64,000 nt of DNA from Isoetes taiwanensis. Taxonomy: Eukaryota; Streptophyta; Lycopodiopsida; Isoetales; Isoetaceae. The notes beneath the pieces were generated by a model that saw nothing but the letters and a program-made list of their open reading frames with translations, had not been told where the DNA came from and made no database searches. Below are positions 26,696 through 38,702 of this stretch, one piece after another. The position numbers were made by a program, and so were the translations under genes. Within the stretch, counting starts at the first letter, position 1. The number at the start of each line of letters is the position of its first letter. The stretch spans positions 8,584,108-8,648,107 of the forward strand of contig JAJEKV010000057.1 of assembly GCA_021234155.1 (NCBI GenBank), given 5' to 3'.

Positions 26696-27363
26696 ATTGC
26701 TATATTTGGATTTTCACCTGAGACACTAGGATTGTTTGTGTTTCTCTTTTAAGTAAGAAACAAGAATGGTAGGCTGACTCAAAAAGGAATTTTTTTTTTT
26801 TTTTATCAACCTTACAACTAGCCGTATATAAGAACAATCCCACAAAATTCATACATCTGCTAAATCTATCCCTATGGCGTATTCTATAGAAAACCATAAA
26901 CTAACTTGTAATGGATTTGGGACCAAAAGAATCCAAGAACACAAGATTTATAGCTCACTAGTTATGGTGCCCGGCGTTGCCGGGCATAACTACAATTGTA
27001 TTGTAGAATTATATGAATAAGATGTAGGATTTAGGAACACTAAAATTGATTCAGTTCTATAAGAATTGCAATTCACAATAGAATAATTTCCTAGGAACTT
27101 CGAGCTTGTGTTTATAAGTTGGGCACTGTATAGATCATGGGATTTGGAGTTGCTTGTGGACATTGGACTGATGAGAGTATTGCAATGAGATTTGGAGTTT
27201 TATGTTTCACAATAATAATTGCACTGAGGTGTGAGATGTAAACTGCAATCAAGCTAATATTGAGCCAACTTGTTTAAATGAATCTTCAACTATAACCCAA
27301 AATTCATAAATAGACGTGAATTAGCTTGATGTGTTAACTCTCTCATACTGTTTCACATGTTTA

Positions 27364-27396
27364 ACAAGGTGACCTAGCAAACACACTAATGACCTG
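27364..27396. repeat. Left terminal inverted repeat (33 bp)
   Basis: Pairs with 36226-36258 with two mismatches (CA versus TG at positions 19-20). Preceded by TGTTTA. Confidence 0.92.
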
Positions 27397-27472
27397 TGGT
27401 GCAATTGCAGATTCCTTTTTCAAAAACACGTAAATTCCGCATTTTAGCCATTTTTTAAAAAAAGCAAGCCCA

Positions 27473-27772
27473 GAAAACGTAGTGAGCCTAAAAAAAGTCC
27501 ACATTTCGAAGACAAGCAGGTTTTCTTGGTTTTGGACAAAGTAAGAAACACACTTTTTGGAGCACCAAAATGCAAATGAAAAGAGAAAAGCCTATGCGCG
27601 CATAGAGAAGACAGTCCTTATTAAATTATAATTTATTTAAAAACGCTAGTGAGCCTAAAAGAAATCCACATTTCAAAGACAAGCAGGTTTTCTTGTATTT
27701 AGACAAAGTAAAAGACAAACTTTTTAGACCAACAAAATGCAACTGAAAAGAGAAAAGCCTATGCGGCGATAG
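27473..27772. repeat. Subterminal direct repeat, period 167 bp
   Basis: About 133 bp from 'acgtagtgagcctaaaa' to the palindrome at 27592-27605 recurs at 27640-27772 with moderate divergence. The second copy ends in a degenerate palindrome (CTATGCGGCGATAG). It lies just inside the left end of the TIR transposon, where transposase-binding repeats are often found. Confidence 0.8.
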
Positions 27773-27852
27773 ACATGATGATCATTAATGGAATATATTA
27801 CATTTAAAATAGGGCACAGAGAATAAAATGTTTAACTTTTGGAACAGAAATT

Positions 27853-29027
27853 TTAAATATCCAAAGGAACATCCTTTGCAGCTATTTCCTCATCTGTTTC
27901 AGAACCTTCGGGATACTTAGGCTTAGTAGCTTCTAGATTTTCCTCAGACTCGGACGGACCTTCTACCTGTTTGACCTTAAGTGGATCTTCGACGGGAATC
28001 AATTCAACATAGTCGGCTTGATCGTCATTGTTCCGTGTAAGAGGAGGCAATGTGCTCGACGAGGAGAAGGCCGGAACACCATCCTTATCCTTGATCCCAA
28101 GTTCCGGTTTTTCGTCCGGCAAGCTGTGTAAGGAACTGACACGTGATTTGATGTATGCTACTGCATCTGCATCGACGTCAACGGCCTACTTTCTGCCAGT
28201 TGTGGCCCCTTCGTAATGCACAAGCCAGCGTGGTGCGGATCACGAAAATGCGTCAACGACCCAATCTCCAGGTTGCGAGAACATGTCCAGAAGCGTGTTA
28301 ATTAGTCTCTGAGGCTTCTGGTAGGGATTGACAATGCGTCCCTGGTGAACTGGGTCTGTAAGCTTTTGTAAGACTGCTGGGCATTGAAAAGCATTGCGAA
28401 AATCCATGCCGGTAGTGTTATAGTGCATTTGGCTTCTCTGCCCAGATACGCTATGGTAGCCTATGTGAATCTGCTCCCACACGTTGACAAGTCTAGCACC
28501 ACCACCTCCCCTAATATTCGTCTTTAACCTGCAAAGAAAGGAAACACTTTTGTATTCGCTATGCCCGCATGGAGAAAACAACTAGACACTTACCATATGG
28601 CAGCCTCGTAACCAGCCTTGCAGTCGGTCTTCATAGCCGCTTGCACCATACCGGCCTGGTTAGTGGAGTGGAAGACGACAATCCTCCAGAGCGGAGCAGT
28701 GTTTATCTTAACAAACCTTCCCAAAAAAGAATCAAACTCGGCGTACGTAAATGGTGAGTCATCACCACGGCTGTCAGGCAACTTAAACCCGTAAGGTATG
28801 TCAGCAATGCACAAGGAATAGTTGCCAGGTCTCAAAGTGTGGTCAAGTTTGACACAATTCCCACGATACACTTGATAAAGACAATTCTGGCCAAACATAT
28901 CAAATCTTTCAAACTCGGAAGGCACCAAACTCTGTTCAGCTTCTTGAGACTTTTTTAGCTTTGACCGCTCCTCTTTAGCTAGCCGGACCATGTTCAAAAA
29001 TCCAGGTGGGATGGGGTCTTTCTTTTT
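27853..29027 (-). pseudogene. Beta-class N6A/N4C DNA methyltransferase domain
   Basis: Exon 28594-29027 contains the catalytic motif IV as SLCIADIPYGF (DPPY-type). Exon 27853-28528 carries, after a conserved-looking RIVNPYQKPQRLINTLLDMF, the AdoMet motif I region PGDWVVDAFS, after which the frame meets TGA (28240-28242). One base later the sequence continues as TTLACALRRGHNWQKVG, then after another slip DVDADAVAYIKSRV. The order motif IV before motif I defines the beta class. The C-terminal 90 residues are acidic and low in complexity. The lesions hit the cofactor-binding loop itself, so this copy cannot be catalytic. Confidence 0.8.
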
Positions 29028-29774
29028 CTGAAAGCCGAAACAATTTGTAAGAAACAAAAATGACTCCCTCACTCACGTGCTATGCGCCAAGATAGCATGG
29101 TAGTGAGGGACACAGGTTAGTGCTATCGCCAAGATAGCACTACCACAAGGTCCCTCAATCACATGCTATGCGCGCATAGCACAGGTACAAAAATGAATAC
29201 CTTAACTCAAGCGAAGAAGGAGGAGAAAAGAAATGACCTACCGGTTGGTAAAGTTGGTGGCATATTGATTTATTTTTTCGTGCGAGGACCACGTGGGGTA
29301 TAATTCCCGCACCTTCTCCCGGTTTGTCGCAGGTTGAGGTGAACCATTAGTCGCTGTTGGCGGCGAGTGCACAATCTTTTTGGTCGCAAAGCGTTCCAAA
29401 AGGTTAATAACAAATATTGGAAAAAACGTGAGTGTGTAATGTAGGCTTACTGTTTAAATTCTTTCTGCATCTCTTCCAGAGTGAACTGTTTATCAACAAC
29501 CTTTTGCAGGACCTCACAAACTTTGTCAACATTTTTTAGGCCTTGCATTTCACGCCAGGCCATTATACCCATATCCTTTTGCTTTGCGGGATCATTTTTC
29601 TTCCTCTTGGAATCCGTTGACTTGCCTTTAGTTTTTAAAGTGCCCTCGTGAGAACATGTCAAAATTTTTTCTTGTAGCTCCCAGACCTAACATAGAAAAC
29701 AACAAGCATGTTAAAAAAATATTTAAGAGCCATGCGCGCATAGCCAAAGGCAAAGGTCGAGAGAAAATACTTAC

Positions 29775-30813
29775 ACGTCCATGACGGAAAGCTAACTGAA
29801 AATAATTATCATATTTTACAAGAGATGCTCTGGCATCTGAGGTGGAGTAAGTTAGGCAAAGCACTTTCGATGGCGCCTTTGTTCTTTTAAGGCCAGTCTG
29901 AGCACGGTCATCCTTAATATCTTTCTCACCTTGGTGCTCGAAGCGGAAGAGTTCATATTCCTTGTGCATGAATTTAATTTTATCTGTGAAGCTCATACTC
30001 ATCCGATACTCATTGTCCACGTTGTGGCTCATTGCAAGCAGCTTTGCCTCTGAGTCAGTGACACCCACGTAAACAAAGGCAAAGATTTGTGAGAAGCAGT
30101 GCTCCTTTGTTTCCTTGTATAGTTGTCTTCTTGCCTTGAAACTGTGGGTGCCCCCTAAAACATAGTATTTGTAGTTCTCGTCCTCTTCCTTAACAAACAG
30201 CTCCTTATCATTGCACTGGGCAGGATCAACTATACATATATGTGGAGCTGTTGCTGCATTCGGCCTGTCTCTTATTCTTTCTTTCAATGCAGTTAAGTGG
30301 CCACTGTAAATTTTACGGACTTGCAATTGTCTCACACCTTGCTCGTCCTTAGGTGCAAGCTTCACACAGTCTACAGAGAGATGCATGATGCCGGGTACAC
30401 GGCTCGATTTCCTCGAGCTTCTTAGATGCCATGTCCTTCTCCTTGCTTGCTATCTTCGTGCCCGGTCCTGACGGCAAAGCTTGCTTAAGGGCCTTCCTGG
30501 CATCTTTTGAGAGTGGAGGCACGGTGGTTGTAACCAGGCCAACCTTGTAGTAATTTCTTTTTCCTTTCTTTTTAGGTGGCTCCTCCTCTTCCTCCTCTAC
30601 ATCCTCCTCTACATCCTCCTCTTCGATTTCCTCTACTTCTTCCTCCTCTTCCACATCTTCAACCAGATGCAAAGTGGCACTCCCCGTTGCTTTAGAAAGG
30701 GTAAGTTTTGGAACAGAGGGCATTGCATCTTTCAATAATTTAGGAACAGAGGCACTAGAAGTTAAAATAGGATCCTTGCACAATAGCAGGTCCTTCAAAA
30801 TGGTGACAAGATC
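29775..30813 (-). pseudogene. ParB-like (ParB/sulfiredoxin-fold) domain exon
   Basis: After the acceptor at 30813 comes DLVTILKDLLLCKDPIL, then an acidic run of Glu/Val/Asp, and PPKKKGKRNYYKVG. A one-base frame change near 30400 then leads into VPGIMHLSVDCVKLAP..., KIYSGHLTALKERI, HICIVDPAQCNDKEL, and YYVLGGTHSFKARRQLYKE. The GGTHSFKA segment corresponds to the GxH(R)xxA signature of ParB-type domains (bacterial ParB has G-E-R-R/H-R-x-x-A). In prokaryotes ParB-like domains are often joined to adenine methyltransferases in phages and mobile DNA. The exon ends RHGR|GTAAGT. The domain call is from motif reading only. Confidence 0.65.
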
Positions 30814-30899
30814 CTGGAAATTGCCTGGAAAGTAACATTCCATTAGCGCAAGAAGAACATTAAAGTTTCTTAGGCTATGTGCGCATAGACAATACTTAC

Positions 30900-31323
30900 A
30901 ATTTTTGCTTTCATTCGGGCCTGAATGTAACCCTGCATGTCCTCGGGAGACGACAGAGTGAGCTTAAAGAAATGGGGGTCCACCGAGTAAACATGTTGAG
31001 CCCCCTTAGTCGTTGTGGTGCAGTTAATATGATACATATCGAAGAGCTCAGTATCTATTAACCTGCCACATCTCTTGAAGCTGTCCAACTCTTTGGATTC
31101 TTTACTAAAACTGTCACAAATGTACAGATACAAAAAATGGGCCGTCACAGGCTCACCAGTTCCTCTTACTAGTAGCCACTGCTGGTCCTTACAGAAATAG
31201 GAACCGTCCTCAGTGATCATGAATGGTGTAGGTGCATCACCCTTTGGTTGATTCTTATCCTTTGTCGGCTTCCTCTTCTTGGCAGCCTTGTGGGAGGAGC
31301 CTGCTTCAGGATTTTTCTTGGCT
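30900..31323 (-). other. Exon 2: unrecognised N-terminal domain
   Basis: 424 nt, in phase with the 14-nt first exon (AG|A gives Arg). It begins with a lysine-rich stretch (KKNPEAGSSHKAAKKRKPTK), likely a nuclear localisation signal, then EDGSYFCKDQQWLLVRG and about 90 residues ending MKAKI before GTAAGT. The text 'GEPVTAHFLYLYICDSFSKE' looks globular. I do not recognise the domain. Confidence 0.7.
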
Positions 31324-31809
31324 CTACAAGACAGAAAAAACCTATTAAAAGACTGCTAGAAAATGCACAAGCAGATCTAACATTGGAAAGGCCTATGCAT
31401 GCATAGACAACCGCAAGTGAAAAACATTATGCCGGCGCGCCAAAGATAGACAATGGCGAGTGGTAAAGGTAAATGCCTATAATGCGCGATAGACAAGGGT
31501 TGCTAAAAATGTTGGTGCCTATGCGCGCATAGACAATACAAGAAGAGAAAAAACAATATGCCTGTGCGCGCAAAAACAATAATAAGAAAAAAGACAGAAT
31601 GCATATGCACGCATAGACTATGAAAGAAAAAAACACTAAATGCTACTGCCCAAGAAGAAATTCGGCAAACAAGATGACCAAAAAGCTAAAAATCAACTAT
31701 CTTCGTCTCTAACCAAAAGACCCTAAACGGGCTACATTTGGTATAAAATTTCTAACAAGTACTGTAAACTGCTACTGGCTGAGATGTTTACGTACCTTCC
31801 ACCTGTCAT

Positions 31810-32242
31810 GTTTGGCGACGCTATGCGTAACTCTATGGAGATGCTCTGATTCAAACGGAAGAGCAAATTTCAAGGGGAGGTCGAAATTTTGAGTAGTATC
31901 GTCTGTATATGCAAATGCCTCCATATGTTTTCGTATTTATATTGTGTTAGGTACTTTGCTTTTCGTCTATGAATTCTTGCATACACATCTAGTTTTGGTT
32001 GCATGCATTGGCTTGTGGAGATAATGTCTAATATTTTGTAATGTTTCTTGGTTGTGTGGCATCTACTTTTCGTATTGAAGTATGCGCACATAGATATATT
32101 TTATCCCTGTCTATGCGCGCATGGGCAACTAGTGTATATTACGTTTGTAACTGCTTTTTTATGCGCGCATGGGCATGTAGACTTGCAGGTTTGAAGGGAG
32201 AGGGTTTAATCGCTGAAACAAGTCACTCTTCCTTGTGCAGCA
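31810..32242. promoter_or_regulatory. Divergent promoter region with palindromes
   Basis: The 433 bp between the two divergent start codons contains three palindrome-type sites (32081-32094, 32110-32124 and 32160-32174). No clear TATA pair can be assigned by eye. The shared spacer suggests coordinated expression of the modification gene and the transposase. Confidence 0.45.
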
Positions 32243-34831
32243 ATGGAGAGCGACGACGAAGACGTTTTTACTTCAAGTCCTCCTGTTAATGTGGCAATAT
32301 TGACTCGTGGTCGTTACAACACACCCACACCAGTAGGTGACGATGAAGAACACTTCGATACGCTTCTCCCGGATGCTACCTCCTCCACACCATCTCCCTC
32401 CCCTTTACACCTACTGGTGTGTCTACCTCTTTTCAAACTCCATCTCCAAAACACGTTTTACAACATTCGTCCATTTTTACAACACCCTCCCCGCCACAAT
32501 CACGAAGTATCTTCTCCTCTTCCCCTACTCAACGTACTCACTCTATTTTTGATACTCCTTCACCTCTCCAGGAACTACACGAATCGTTGCAATATATTGT
32601 AGATTCTGCGGAGAGACGTGTGCTGCGTGCTGCTGGCCCTTCTTTAACAGAAAGGGCTTCTGAGGAAGACCTTCAAGTTCTGAAGAGAAAGTCGAGAACA
32701 TTATTTGCTGACAGACCTGGCACTTCCGTTGAGGGCGACAAGGCTGATGACCCTGTGTTTGAAGACGTGCAGTTCTGCACTCCTAAAAGACCTACCACAG
32801 ACACTGCTCAGAATAAAAGTCCTGCAGTGAAAAACCCGTACAGCAGTGCGAAAAGATTTAAGAGGGATCCCACAGTAAAAGCTTTTAGAACTGTTATGCG
32901 CGAGCGATTGATGGGACTGTCTTACATGAGAAAGCTGAGGAGACTGAATTGCTGTCAAAAAAAATGCTTACAGGCCTTTACATTTTCGTCTTTAAGGAAC
33001 ATAAGACAACGATTTTTGTCAATGTCGAAAGGTGATCAAGAGTTGTACTTGGCATACAGTGTAAGGCCTGAAGTTGGAGACAATTTTTCATATTATGTTT
33101 CAAGCAACACAGTGTGCCAACTTGCTTTTAAAAGAATACATGCCATTGGAAGTCGTCGCATGTCAAGAGTGCAAAAGAGGTTAGACAGGAATCCGTGCAT
33201 TGATGACTATTCACACCCAAAGAAAGTTGTCGGTATGTACTGCCTAAAAGCAAAAGCTTGGCTGGTTGGTTTCTTTGACTCTAACTGTGCGCGACTTCCA
33301 AACAGTCCTGTATATCATCTGACAGACAGTATTACTAAGAAGGAAGTCTACAGCATGTACAAGGATCTTTTCCAGAGTTCAAGTCAAAAGTTCATATCCT
33401 ATTCCTACTTCTTGAGGTTGTGGAAGCAAGAATTTAATCTTGTTAGGATTCCGAAGAGGCACAGATTTTTGGTGTGTACTAGCTGCTCCACATTAAAGGA
33501 AAAACGAACAATGGCCAAGGATATTCTAGAAAAAAGTACGTCCCTTTCGTCTAATCCCTTCTCGTTAGCACGACTAGAGACATTGTCTTATGCGGCCAAA
33601 GCACGGCTATTTAGTCTTGAGTTTGTCTATGTGCACATAGCAGGTCTTTTTTAATCTTGTAGTACTCGCACAGCAGGTCTCTTCAATCTTGTAGCTTCGC
33701 CCCTTCCCCAAAAGAGTCTCCTCTATTATGCGCGCCAAGATAGCACGTCTACAAAAGCTTTTTGCCGGTTACTGGTGGAGCCTTCACATTTGCTTCAAGG
33801 TAATCGACAAAAAGCTTATTTGGCAAGATAGCACGCGGCTACAAAAGCTTAGCTACAGTTACGTGGAGCCCCCATCGTTGCCTATCGCCAAGATAGCACG
33901 GCTACAAAAGCTTAGCTGCAGTTCTGTGGAGCCTTACTATTGCTTCAAGGTACTGACTAATGTCTTAATTGCAGATCAGATAACTCAAGAGTTGCAAGTT
34001 CACAGAGAGGCTCAAGCCTTGGAGAGAAAGAAGCTAGCAAAACATAGAAAGAAATCTTTGGAGAGGCCACTCGAATATATGTCTGTGGTGGTAGACGGCA
34101 TGGACCAAAAGAAGACCTCACTTCCCCATTTTGTAAATGTTCCAAAGGATTTAGATGAATCCGATTTTTTGAGGCTTCATTTGGTTGGGGCGATGATCTT
34201 TCATGGTGTTGTACAGTGCAGAGTATTTTTGACCTATCCAAATATACAAAGCGATCCTAACCTCACGGTGACAATACTAAATAAGATTTTGCTGGCAAAG
34301 GAGAAGCTGCCTCCAGTGTTGTACTTACAGTTAGACAATACTACTAGAGAAAATAAAAACCAAGTTTTATTTGCTTATTGCGCAATGCTGGTCGAGCTGG
34401 GTATCTTTCGAAAGGTCAAGGTTGGTTTCTTACTTGTGGGCCACACCCATGATCAGATAGACCAAATGTTCAGCAGATTTTCTGTGCGGTTGCGAAGGAA
34501 AAAAGCATTTTGTCTACACTCCTTGTGCAGTGTGATTGAGCAAGCTTACAATCCGACTCCAGTTGTCGAAGTGCTTAGCGAGACTTTTGATTTTCGTGAG
34601 TTTGTTTTCCAGCGTCATGGTGATACAGGTCCTGCTATCCATAAGTTGAATAATTTGACATTTCAACATCATGTAAAAAACTTTCTCAAGGACGGTAAAG
34701 CACAACTTCAAGGGAAGTACTTTGTCACCTCCCAAACTTGGCAGCCTGAGGCAGGCCTACAATATTTAAAATATGTTCCTGAAACTAAGGTAATGAGAAG
34801 GGCTATTCAAGCCACCCTAAAAGTGCCGTAG
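32243..34831 (+). pseudogene. Putative RNase-H-like transposase (DUF7869-type)
   Basis: Exon 1 runs from 32243 (MESDDEDVFTSS) or 32419 to 33535. The intron is 33536-33974 (GTACGT...TTGCAG), and exon 2 runs from 33975 to a TAG at 34829. The join restores phase (A|AT gives Asn). The N-terminus is Ser/Thr/Pro-rich and needs a one-base frame change near 32405. Exon 1 ends with a Cys pair (FLVCTSCSTLKEKR). Exon 2 carries MSVVVDGMDQKKTSLPHF, LYLQLDNTTRENKN and LLVGHTHDQIDQMFSRFSVR, spaced like the acidic catalytic residues of an RNase-H fold. The combination DGMDQ / LDN..REN / GHTH.QIDQ.FSR matches what I recall as Pfam DUF7869. It is the best candidate for the transposase of the enclosing element. 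Confidence 0.75.
33729..33974. repeat. Intronic triplicate with palindrome half-sites
   Basis: Within the transposase intron a ~65-85 bp unit ('gccaagatagcacg..ctacaaaagctt...gtggagcc') occurs three times, starting near 33734, 33822 and 33890. Each unit carries the CCAA-expanded half of the element's palindrome. Confidence 0.8.
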
Positions 34832-35750
34832 ACTACAATGTAAAAGAACAAGGACAAAAATCCCTTCGCCTCTCCGGACAAAGCATGGAGAAAAGTATAA
34901 GGTCAGGTTTTAAGTACTTCAATTGAGGAGGACAAAGGCTGGTGGGAGAATTTCTTTTCAATAATGCGGGGATGTAACTAAATCCCTCAACAAAGATCTC
35001 CCCGAAGTTGCTTTTGTTGGCCCTGGTACTCAACTTCATCCCCTTGTTGAGGCGAGACAAGGAATTGCAAAGGGTTCCGTGGTTTCGCAAGATCAAGTCA
35101 ACAAGGAACCTGATCGTGTAATGTACCTCGGAAGTAGACGTGTTTTGAAAAGAACCAAGGCCAAACTCCGTAAAAACTTTGCGGATTTGACTAAGGGGAT
35201 GCTTATAGCCGTACCTTCGACCGATGATGGCTAAGAGCGCCCTTTCGATTGCGCGGGTTAAGGACATTGTACTCAAAGACAATCTCCCTTCAAGAGGAAA
35301 GTTCATTTGGTACCAAACTAAGGATACGATCCTTTTATCGGTCGGTATGATCCCCGCGGATAATTCCTTTCAAGGAGGGCCGGAAAATGATGAATAAGAA
35401 TCACATGGACAACTGGACCTGAACGTAAACTCAAGTGCTGGCTTATGATTTTACACTCAAGGTTGATAACAATGCTACGCGGCGATAACAGCTAACTTCA
35501 TCAAGTCTTTCTCGCTAAGATAGTTCGTGATTTAAGGTTCCCGTGGATGAGGACAAGTTGTTCCAAAGCGGTTAGCTCTTCGACCACTTCAAGTGACAAT
35601 GAGGAGAGTGGCAACGAGGACAAGGGTGACGAAGTCCGAAGGAGTTGACGAGTATAACGACATTCCTAATCATGCTCTTTCTCAAAGGTCAGAAACTTCT
35701 TTGTATAATCTAAATGTGGGCACATCGTTACCTCCTAGTTTTGGCTAGAG
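34832..35750 (+). pseudogene. Decayed C-terminal extension of the transposase
   Basis: After the stop at 34829-34831, plus-strand frames with protein-like composition continue with slips: SLNKDLPEVAFVGPGTQLHP, then KLRKNFADLTKGMLIAVPS, then SIARVKDIVLKDNLPSRGKF, and near the end SETSLYNLNVGTSLPPSFG before a TAG at about 35748. The 'GMLIAV...FIWYQ' stretch resembles the small C-terminal domain that I believe follows the catalytic core in related proteins. Minus-strand frames over the same stretch look like shadows. Confidence 0.5.
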
Positions 35751-36225
35751 TTTTTGTACATGTTGTACATGTTTTGTACATGCTCGCATAGCTTCTTCCA
35801 AGTTTATCCATGTTTTTCATGTCTTGTATAAGCTAAAAATGCTATCGACATGTTAGTTATGTCTTGTATGTTTTTCTCGCTGTTATGCGCCAAGATAGCA
35901 CCTTGTGGTTCTTCTTGAGTAATAACAAATAGATACTTAGATTTGCCAATCTTGCTTTCATTTCTTGTGAAGATTTTAATGGTTCTTTAATTTTGCTAGT
36001 TTTCTTGTATTTCCTAGATTTTCTTAAAAGGTGACTCCATTTTTTAAAATTTTGTTTGGGTGTCTACAATTCACAAAACAAAGAAAAGTTTTCTAATTTT
36101 GGACCAAAAAAGGGGTGTCACAAATCAAAATTGGGGGCTGTTTTTTCAATTGACCCCCCCAAAAGTGGCAATTTTTAGGTTTTTTTTAGGGAATCTTTAA
36201 AAGATTCCTTTTTGTAGTGCAAACG

Positions 36226-36258
36226 CAGGTCATTAGTGCATTTGCTAGGTCACCTTGT
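36226..36258. repeat. Right terminal inverted repeat (33 bp)
   Basis: Inverse of 27364-27396. Followed by TGTTTA, the same hexamer that precedes the left repeat. Confidence 0.92.
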
Positions 36259-36264
36259 TGTTTA

Positions 36265-38702
36265 TATTGTAGGCATGTGCCTTGCATTCTTGGCGTGTCA
36301 TGGCCATTGGGTGTGCGCCTTATTCTGCTCATAAAGATGGTTGTGGCGACTATTAAACTTTAATACAACAATGACTATCATATACCTAGATATGAAGTAC
36401 GTCTACATGTAACATGTAAGTTGCAATTTAAGTAAACACCACCCCAGGTCTGATTTAAGTAAACACGTGTGGTCTACTTTAAGTAAACACCACCAGTCCG
36501 AAATTTAAGTAAACACCACCAGTCCGAAATTAAAATTTGCCCTAACCATTAAAAATGCCTGCATACATTGAAGGCTACTGAAAATACACGAAATTATAGT
36601 GTAGTTTCCCAGAAATCCTTAAAAACTTATACGAAAATAGCCTGAAAAAATGCCAAGATTGTTTTTTAGTTATCGGAATTTTTTTAGAATGGTCGGATTT
36701 TTCAGGGTCGAACCCCCCCAATTTCGAACCCTGCTGACCACCCTAGTTTAACTGGTTAATGTCTACAATGTACCTATAACCATAGTAAGATGAAAATAAT
36801 TCAATAAGGCACATTTTTTAAAATATAGCTTCAACGATTTCTCAGCAGGATACAATTCCCAAGTATCATTTGGATAAGTTTGATCAGGGTTGATTTGCAT
36901 TAAAAATCCTTGTTTAAATCATGCCATTTAATTTAAAAATAGCAGACATTTATAGGCAGCATTGCTTGTTAAATGTAGTCCTAAACCAGTCCCAACTTAG
37001 AATGCAATTTAAGTCAGTGGCTCTTCTGCTAAATGCTAAATGAGTATCATCAAAATCATGATAATAGTAACATTAGTACGTTAGTGAGTGTAGTATCCCT
37101 GCAAAATCCATGAATCCGCTAATTGATAGAAACCTGAAATCATAAGACGATAAAAGCCAGCTGCATGTTAGCACATAATACATCACTCATAGCAAATTAA
37201 AGTAGAAAAAATCTATAAGCACCATGACCTAGCAGGTTTGCTAACCTGAGAAATTTGCCTTCATAATAATAACATAGTTCAACATGCACAAAAATTACCT
37301 GCACAAATATGGAAGTTGCTTCAAATGTAGTATGTTGCTAGCAAACTTCTCATTAGGCAAAAGAATAGAAGGTATACACCTTATACAGAGATTATTCCAT
37401 TTTAAAGAAAAACCAATTGTAGATATGAGAAGTATGTATCTATTTGGACCTTTGTCAATTGAACTGTTTAATTCGAGGCACCTTCTTTCCTAACATAATT
37501 GGAATTCTAGATTACGAAGTAACATGACAGTTGGGTCTACAAAAGATTCAGCACACATGATGTTACACAATCTGTAGAATTTACAAAACTAAATCGTGTG
37601 AGATGAAGCACAAAGGGAGGTGACTGATATGCTTTCAAAAGATGATGTGGAAGATATCTTTTAAAACTCTCCATTGCAACACATTAAGATTTTGAACATA
37701 GATGAAGGATGTCGTATTATCTATCTATATATATAATAATAAAGCCGTTTTAGGATAGTTTGTGCAGCATCTGGTCCCTTCATTTTTTTTTTAATTATTT
37801 TTATCCCTTCGATTTATCCGCGGTAGACGGTTTTTTTCCTCTCTTGACCCCTCTCACGGCTTCTCGAGTTAGACCCCTGTTTGCAGGCAGAGCGTGAGCT
37901 TGTATCACGAAGCAATAAGCCATTATTGTCGATTTTGTTGCTTTCATTTTGGTCCGTTGATAGGAAAATTTCAATGAAGAGGTTGTAGGGGCGGTTTTCC
38001 TTTCAAATCATATACAGCGGCAGTTCTCCAGTGCATTTTGTGGCTCCTTTTTTTTGTCATGGCATTTTGTGGCACTTTTTGTGGATTTGAGTATGGAGCA
38101 ACCTGTATTCATGCAATCCGTCAACATTTTTGTAGTTTATTTTGAAGGCATCCGGATGTGTGAATTTTAAGCAGATGGAGAAATGGAGGTGCTATAAATA
38201 CATGTGTGAGAGTAGTGACACATCATGTATATCTGTAAACACATTAAATCAGCAACATTTTTCTTAGAACAATTCATCAACTGCATAACAATTTATCTTG
38301 ATCAACGATAAGAAAGCGAAAAAATTGTTCATCATGTATAGCATGAAGTTCATCTACATTACTTGTATCAGAAGAAGCACATTCTAGATTAGATACCATC
38401 TTCTACAGCAATACTAAGAACTTGAGATTCATAGACATAATGGATGCAACGTTTCGAATAGAACCAACATGACATAAACATACCTAAAAGGACCAAATAT
38501 TAACAAAGGAAACGTCCATTAGCTTGGAATTAAGGCCTCCTCGTCAACTATCACATGCATTTATAGTGAAGAACATGTGCTAAGCTATCTAATAATAATT
38601 TCATGGCAATAACCTAGATATTTGAAATTTGATCTAGGAATATCTTGTCTATTAAAAATCTTATGGCTTGATTCAGATGAGGCATCAAAATCATTCAGCT
38701 TG
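36265..38702. other. Helitron interior, no gene recognised
   Basis: AT-rich sequence with scattered short frames only. There is a short tandem motif 'taagtaaacaccaccagtcc' near 36432-36530 and an AT microsatellite near 37720-37740. Nothing here can be supported as a gene. Confidence 0.6.

Follow-up and report, generated by a model that had tools for sequence, protein, structure and literature searches.

In the brown alga Ectocarpus, the 21.5 kb transposon Sola1-1_Ec32 carries, on the strand opposite its transposase, a gene for a 1104-amino-acid protein with ParB-like and N4/N6 DNA-methyltransferase regions; its authors propose that proteins of this kind attach to the transposon that encodes them and modify it epigenetically, and they cite similar proteins for transposons of green and red algae (PMC12477816). 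In the VANDAL transposons of Arabidopsis, arrays of the VANC motif lie in introns, intergenic regions and terminal parts, differ between related families and are bound by an element-encoded protein; the motif, YAGTATTAY, is non-palindromic, and VANC causes loss of DNA methylation (PMC5735166). Fungal DNA transposons carry TET/JBP dioxygenases, TET oxidizing 5-methylcytosine (5mC) (PMC12730594), and N4CMT of bdelloid rotifers is the product of a host gene that helps to silence transposons (PMC8885841). Here we describe a related arrangement in the lycophyte Isoetes taiwanensis, within a 64,000-nucleotide stretch of contig JAJEKV010000057.1 (positions 8,584,108 to 8,648,107; hereafter the window). 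Positions 27363-36259 of the window hold a degraded copy of an abundant DNA transposon, in which a transposase gene faces away from a gene for a ParB-like/methyltransferase protein (ParB-MTase) and short palindromes recur in arrays.

The Ectocarpus and Isoetes elements both have a ParB-MTase gene opposite the transposase. They differ in host and in size, and the available part of the Sola1-1_Ec32 report mentions no binding sites, whereas the present elements occur in a lycophyte and in fern-like contigs, are ~9 kb long, fall into several families and carry candidate sites. The gene pair is thus not new in kind, being already reported for brown-algal Sola1 and, in works cited there (Iyer 2011; Petroll 2025), for transposons of green and red algae. 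A first-pass annotation of the window, made from the sequence, knew of no described plant transposon with this pair, a statement that needs qualifying in the light of the algal cases. What is new are the lineage-specific palindromes, with a fixed frame and a variable core, beside ParB-MTase; no mention of such arrays was found in the available parts of the open-licence literature, in which no search was aimed at them, and no mention of DUF7869, the transposase domain, was found there by name. As in VANDAL, the motif arrays are family-specific and lie in non-coding parts (loci L012 and L020 are exceptions here), but these sites are palindromic and their candidate reader is fused to a methyltransferase. 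The element resembles the TET/JBP carriers in being a transposon with a DNA-modifying enzyme, which there oxidizes 5mC, and resembles N4CMT in having a bacterial-type amino-methyltransferase at work in a eukaryote, N4CMT being, in contrast, a host gene that helps to silence transposons. Our preferred reading, to which we assign a probability of roughly one half (about 0.52), is that this is a Sola-like transposon with a self-recognition module, in which ParB-MTase would read, and probably methylate, its own element.

The ends of the element are well defined. The first-pass annotation described 33-bp inverted repeats with matching TGTTTA hexamers outside them. The inverted pair stands, at 34 nt per arm, 94% complementary and starting with AACAAGG; the letters of the hexamer are shared by both flanks, but the target-site duplication (TSD) is GTTT only, and the hexamer is this duplication plus adjoining letters. 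As that annotation had proposed, the terminal inverted repeat (TIR) pair serves well as a genome query: across 1,658,258,908 bases in 1110 contigs, the pattern occurs 331 times on the plus strand and 337 times on the minus strand at ≤3 mismatches, and its reversed control not once. With the element end set at AACAAGG, 13 of the 14 copies that have two ends are flanked by an exact 4-bp TSD, and not one of them by a TSD of 5-8 bp in any of the 14. Beyond this set, 4-bp TSDs occur at L015 and L017 (AATG and CTTA), and L022 lacks one. Full-length copies (that of the window and L001-L008) measure 8.8-9.4 kb, and the window element is on average 89.5-90.6% identical in nucleotides to L001-L005. Directly beyond the element, at window positions 36411-36520, lie short direct repeats with TTTAAGTAAACACCACC.

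A set of phased, lineage-specific palindromes, overlooked by the first-pass annotation, offers the strongest hint of the mechanism. Four lineages each have their own repeated palindrome: CTATGCGCGCATAG in A, GTGTATTCCGGAATACAC in B, GTATGAATTCATAC in C and GTATAAATTTATAC in D. All four fit a common frame, TAT-NNN|NNN-ATA, around 6-bp cores that read GCGCGC, TCCGGA, GAATTC and AAATTT. The families are named by site core, and protein comparison yields the same grouping. Each locus has only its own core of the four, apart from single AAATTT sites in L023, L025 and L028. In 25 of 31 loci, the count of the most frequent palindromic 10-mer is above the highest value given by 30 second-order shuffles. 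The window element holds 12 A-type sites at ≤2 mismatches, and the remaining 55,103 bp of the window hold none at that threshold and two at 3 mismatches. Genome-wide, counting inside and outside elements alike, CTATGCGCGCATAG occurs 1551 times (reversed control, 0) and ATTCCGGAAT 5751 times (control, 979). Detected exons account for 132,700 of 239,048 bases in 26 loci, yet 172 of the 187 exact sites fall elsewhere, and all 16 sites of the window element (≤3 mismatches) avoid modelled exons, falling in introns, the divergent promoter region and subterminal parts. Neighboring sites are regularly spaced: in 83 cases they are ≤100 bp apart, 49 times at 40-43 bp (roughly four turns of the helix) and 10 times at 82-85 bp. 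A subterminal 163-bp direct repeat (window 27480-27809; two copies, 167 bp apart and 82% identical) contains one palindrome per copy.

Palindromes also persist in copies that have lost their genes. Among five short copies of 3.3-4.2 kb, L010, L011, L013 and L014 match no coding query and align with the window element at the ends only (274-278 bp on the left, 105-308 bp on the right); L012 retains coding remnants. These four keep 9, 9, 10 and 14 palindromes, respectively, a density of 2.4-3.3 per kb versus 0.2-2.3 in L001-L008. The fifth, L012, has none, yet has a perfect 4-bp TSD. L012 is 72% alike to L020, which represents a sublineage with A-like TIRs, decayed genes and likewise no array; either the array was lost there or another motif is used.

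The first-pass annotation saw two divergent intron-containing genes, and this holds. The product of the minus-strand, multi-exon gene joins a methyltransferase to a ParB-like and an N-terminal region. The splice sites of this gene are GT...AG where modelled, in one exon after a shift of 1-3 bases at its ends; the model leaves out one small exon between ~29027 and 29451. The window copy is broken: the frame of its ParB exon changes near 30400, and AdoMet (S-adenosylmethionine) motif I, which reads DAFSGSGTT in other copies, meets a stop after DAFS. The Pfam searches that the annotation had suggested recover DUF7869 in the transposase and N6_N4_Mtase (PF01555) in the better preserved homologue L016 (68.5 bits, E 1.1e-18); the window methyltransferase exon, at 26.0 bits, falls short of the cut-off of 26.7. 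For the L016 methyltransferase, the best solved relative is CcrM (E 2.3e-11) and the best phage family phrog_67 (E 3e-24). In 7 aligned rows AD[IL]PYGF lies upstream of AFSG[ST]GTT, motif IV before motif I, which is the beta-class order that the annotation had read from ADIPYGF and the broken DAFS. Motif IV is retained in 24 of 26 loci and motif I in 17, with one change in two further loci, a break in two (the window and L023) and the segment absent in five. The canonical catalytic motif of beta-class N6_N4 DNA methyltransferases is (D/N/S)PP(Y/F); D[IL]PY is one residue off, as are the ADLPYG or ADIPYG of the phage relatives L031-L033.

Sequence comparison points to constraint on the methyltransferase. 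In loci of families A, C and D, its exons mostly show 40-67% identity to those of L016, and within the whole protein conservation is highest in the motif-I exon (59-67% in most of these loci; identities are merged local matches and approximate). Synonymous divergence (dS) is saturated in most comparisons of this gene, so the ratios of nonsynonymous to synonymous divergence (dN/dS) are those with finite dS: 0.02 for the motif-I exon (L016 versus L015 and versus L027), and 0.17 and 0.26 for the WDLQ exon.

As judged by homology, the transposase/ParB-MTase pair recurs with its order unchanged in diverged families and in fern-like contigs. Genome matches were taken as the best 150 of 2194 candidates for the methyltransferase, 143 of 2854, and 109 of 10215 for DUF7869; the co-occurrence fractions are lower bounds because they rest on these best matches listed. 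A ParB match lies within 15 kb of 68 of the 150 methyltransferase matches listed, upstream on the same strand in 69 of 70 pairs (~0.4 pairs expected by chance). A DUF7869 match lies within 15 kb of 22 of the 150, and 22 of 23 methyltransferase-transposase pairs within that distance are divergent (~0.3 expected). Conversely, 32 of the 109 DUF7869 matches listed have a ParB or methyltransferase match nearby. In six full-length copies chosen from TIR pairs (L002-L007; methyltransferase matches were already known for four of them, and the C940 TIR pair was left out), transposase and ParB-region homology is present in all six and methyltransferase homology in five, in line with the proposal that this gene is kept with the transposase. 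Loci L015-L030 are no gauge of this frequency because most were picked for co-occurring genes. The outcomes named by the first-pass annotation as speaking against it, namely copies that consistently lack the methyltransferase, TIRs unpaired elsewhere and a failed fold search, were not what we found.

A scan of assembled genome contigs found homologues on five contigs of an 'uncultured Trichormus' metagenome-assembled genome. Relative to L016, their ParB region is ~41% and their motif-I exon 36-40% identical, with an opposite-strand DUF7869 at 46% in L068 and L071; L068 has introns and, like the window copy, has one that separates the two methyltransferase exons. The same record has nine DUF7869 matches on eight contigs, seven of them stop-free open frames of 873-924 amino acids. 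Trichormus lives in the fern Azolla, and because of this we read the intron-bearing contigs (L067-L071 and L074-L076) as probably fern host DNA binned with the symbiont. They have a palindrome of their own, odd-centred and with a half-site that is mostly GTCGATGC; even-centred palindrome counting misses it. All four contigs that cover both genes have it in the interval separating them: once in L068, four times in L071, three times in L074 (with three more of GTCGATACC form) and ten times in L075, at 50-52 bp. In single-gene contigs the sites are upstream of the gene, with one in L067, four at 41 bp in L069 and two in L076; L070, in which little upstream DNA is present, has none.

The methyltransferase profile found 36 loci on viral contigs (best-segment identity 21-43%), and the DUF7869 and ParB profiles found no relatives there; among annotated phages, 24 records matched the methyltransferase query, each over less than 80% of its length. 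One phage protein, L031 (IMG/VR), has the same combination, ParB_N (E 3.1e-5; 24.4 bits, cut-off 26.3) and N6_N4_Mtase (E 4.4e-25) in one protein with an ADLPYG motif; it differs in its uninterrupted frame and is 21% identical in the methyltransferase.

The plus-strand gene, the frame of which is interrupted in the window copy, encodes the candidate transposase. DUF7869 (PF25273) is its sole Pfam match above cut-off. In an alignment of 15 rows, the LQLDN Asp never varies, and the Asp of DGMD and second Asp of HTHDQID are present in at least 90%. Strands and helices of the predicted structure follow one another in an RNase-H-like order, with modest confidence (predicted local distance difference test score, pLDDT, 58.4; predicted template modelling score, pTM, 0.62). 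Foldseek returned nothing for this model at E 1e-3 or better, an IstA transposase ranking third at 2.8e-3 behind a herpesvirus terminase nuclease. The gene has a dN/dS of 0.08-0.17 in five comparisons. The locus bears out the description of a cut-and-paste-type element with an RNase-H-like transposase candidate. The transposase also has a conserved C-terminal stretch outside DUF7869 (GMLIAVPT...FWIAKV...KIHWL; in the C-terminal part of L016 5821-7536) that looks chromatin-reader-like by eye only.

Sola transposons have a 4-bp TSD, a DDD transposase and TIRs of 11-1124 bp, are mostly 2-9 kb long and are found in Physcomitrella (PMC10741241). The element matches in TSD, TIR length and copy length, and the 4-bp TSD fits Sola better than a 6-bp superfamily. 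The TSD is 6 bp in IS3EU and 8 bp in Zisupton (PMC12730594). An IS3EU-like identity is rejected by the 4-bp TSDs, Zisupton by a TSD of 4 rather than 8 bp, and KDZ by DUF7869 being the only Pfam match of the transposase above cut-off. This is likely a Sola-type transposon, set beside Sola by described features rather than by named Sola sequences. The features of the window copy are collected in the table.

Table. Features of the transposon copy in the window (positions in window coordinates; exon limits as modelled)
Feature	Position	Strand	Basis or remarks
Whole element, 8897 bp, broken copy	27363..36259	.	TIR pair, 4-bp TSD, identity to L001-L005
TSD GTTT, left	27359..27362	.	copy comparison and window flanks
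Left TIR, 5'-AACAAGGTGACC...	27363..27396	+	TIR pairing, genome counts, TSD
A-type palindrome CTATGCGCGCATAG, exact	27592..27605	.	
A-type palindrome, 3 mismatches	27759..27772	.	
ParB-MTase methyltransferase exon, motif I (DAFS, broken)	27853..28528	-	PF01555, motif table, AG acceptor; 3' end approximate
A-type palindrome, 2 mismatches, intron	28559..28572	.	
ParB-MTase methyltransferase exon, motif IV (ADIPYGF)	28594..29027	-	ends hand-set 1-3 bases inward
A-type palindrome, exact, outside modelled exons	29166..29179	.	
ParB-MTase next exon (WELQ...)	29451..29686	-	AG/GT sites; tblastn with L016 exon
A-type palindrome, 1 mismatch, intron	29730..29743	.	
ParB-MTase ParB-like exon (VLGGTHSFKARRQ), frame changes in window copy	29775..30813	-	AG/GT sites, alignment, fold search of L068 homologue
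A-type palindrome, 1 mismatch, intron	30875..30888	.	
ParB-MTase exon 2 (N-terminal domain)	30900..31323	-	AG/GT sites; open once joined to exon 1
Four A-type palindromes, ParB-MTase intron 1	31393..31616		starts 31393, 31519, 31562, 31603; mismatches 2, 0, 3, 2
ParB-MTase exon 1 (ATG)	31796..31809	-	GT donor
Three A-type palindromes, divergent promoter region	32080..32172		starts 32080, 32111, 32159; mismatches 2, 1, 2
Transposase 5' exon, frame change near start	32243..33535	+	open reading frames, splice context; end approximate
Two A-type palindromes, transposase intron	33627..33739		starts 33627, 33726; mismatches 2, 3
Transposase exon with DUF7869 (DGMDQ, LDNTTREN, GHTHDQID)	33974..34831	+	PF25273 E 6.8e-52, alignment
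A-type palindrome, 3 mismatches	35778..35791	.	
Right TIR	36226..36259	-	TIR pairing, genome counts, TSD
TSD GTTT, right	36260..36263	.	copy comparison and window flanks

So, what reads the palindromes? Under the preferred reading of self-recognition by ParB-MTase, the ParB-like part would bind the element's own palindromes, in the manner of parS or an operator, and the fused methyltransferase would place an amino-methyl mark there, N6-methyladenine or N4-methylcytosine. The mark, or the bound protein, may keep the promoters open against host silencing or may tag the element for the transposase. VANC would be the counterpart that does likewise for VANDAL transposons, through a different protein. 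Since derivatives without genes retain the palindromes, they would benefit in trans.

A number of observations weigh against this reading. To begin with, the ParB assignment is supported by modelled structure and not by sequence profiles. The first-pass annotation took GGTHSFKA for a ParB-type signature, and a Foldseek search with the modelled region of the fern-like L068 homologue does return ParB folds, its ten best matches all being ParB, Noc or PadC (best E 3.4e-4), but Pfam ParB_N (PF02195) matches neither the window, the L016 nor the L068 protein. A profile search of the PDB with this region gave three weak matches, none of them ParB; other profile matches are weak as well (TIGR03764, 0.0093; phrog_723, 0.026). 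The L068 model itself is of low confidence (pLDDT 55.8, pTM 0.44), the template modelling (TM) scores by query length are only 0.24-0.33, and the VIA-align Z is at most 7.5, in a range that the tool calls common. The arrays are not universal: the shuffle maximum is not exceeded in 6 of 31 loci (L006, L011, L012, L013, L017 and L020), though L011 and L013 have 9 and 10 sites at ≤2 mismatches; an array is missing altogether from L012 and L020, and in L017 there are just six variant sites that do not fit the frame. Coding constraint is expected to explain part of the scarcity of sites in exons. The site-bearing short copies are non-independent, L010/L011 and L013/L014 being two related subfamilies; the short copies have ~100 bp that are 74-75% similar to the L021 array, and L011 shares 445 bp with L029 at 87%. 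Finally, 77 of the 109 DUF7869 matches listed have no ParB or methyltransferase match nearby; of two inspected, L072 has both genes and L073 only the N-terminal part of ParB-MTase within the stretch taken.

The strongest competitor, which we consider unlikely but by no means negligible, is that the transposase itself binds the palindromes, for end synapsis or autoregulation, with the methyltransferase travelling along as a separate passenger. In several family A elements, sites lie 226-447 bp from an end, where the transposase could use them, and short copies, which must have moved in trans, retain sites. The transposase and ParB-MTase also diverge together, so core type alone cannot separate the two as reader. 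However, the majority of sites are internal, in the divergent promoter and in introns, L012 moved without any, as its TSD attests, and L015 and L017 have nearly the same TIR but unlike site centres. One contrast bears on the reader itself. Family A and the related A'' (L029), which share a core, are 65-69% identical in the ParB region, 54-71% in the WDLQ exon and 66-70% and 74-80% in the two methyltransferase exons, and 56-65% and 65-67% in the N-terminal and catalytic parts of the transposase. Families C and D, with different cores, are 40% identical in the ParB region (decayed in D), 61% in the WDLQ exon and 58% and 75% in the methyltransferase exons, and 72% and 70% in the two transposase parts. 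Core type thus appears to follow ParB-MTase likeness slightly better than transposase likeness. This single contrast is what favors ParB-MTase over the transposase as reader, and it is weak because two of the four ParB-MTase segments overlap.

It is improbable that ParB-MTase is instead an operator-bound regulator of the two divergent promoters, its methylation incidental or lost. The arrays do lie between and inside both genes, and the structural matches of the ParB region include the ParB-type plasmid repressor KorB. The nucleotide-binding motif of ParB, GxHR/GERR, carries an arginine; the corresponding position is Ser or Thr here (GG[TNS]H[ST] in 16 of 16 aligned rows; GGNHA in L024). This fits a regulator, and it makes gating by cytidine triphosphate doubtful, a further point against self-recognition of the parS kind. 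Against a regulator, the methyltransferase motifs persist across families, and the motif-I exon is the part of the protein that has changed least. Least credible of all is that the palindromes are decorative tandem repeats spread by slippage with no protein to bind them, as the frequent 40-43 bp units might suggest, given a shared frame with different cores in four lineages, another palindrome at the same place in the fern-like contigs, and several separate introns of one gene that each hold a site.

What would recognition of its own DNA by ParB-MTase mean for these plants and their transposons? If true, it would be a second case, with a different mechanism, in which transposons carry the genes for their own epigenetic recognition, and the mark that they write would be invisible to ordinary 5mC maps. 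Since the frame is fixed and the cores vary, the specificity of the reader should be readable from sequence, and a single genome would hold at least four natural reader-site pairs. DUF7869 is tied by this locus to a TIR transposon with 4-bp TSDs. More tentatively, and with the odds somewhat against so broad a claim, seed-free plants may harbor a large transposon clan with a prokaryote-type code for self and non-self, in which a ParB-like reader and an amino-methyltransferase would use lineage-private, phased palindromes to place a non-5mC mark on their own copies, gene-less ones included. Reader and sites would then co-diverge, a radiation within one plant genome that may resemble that of restriction-modification systems.

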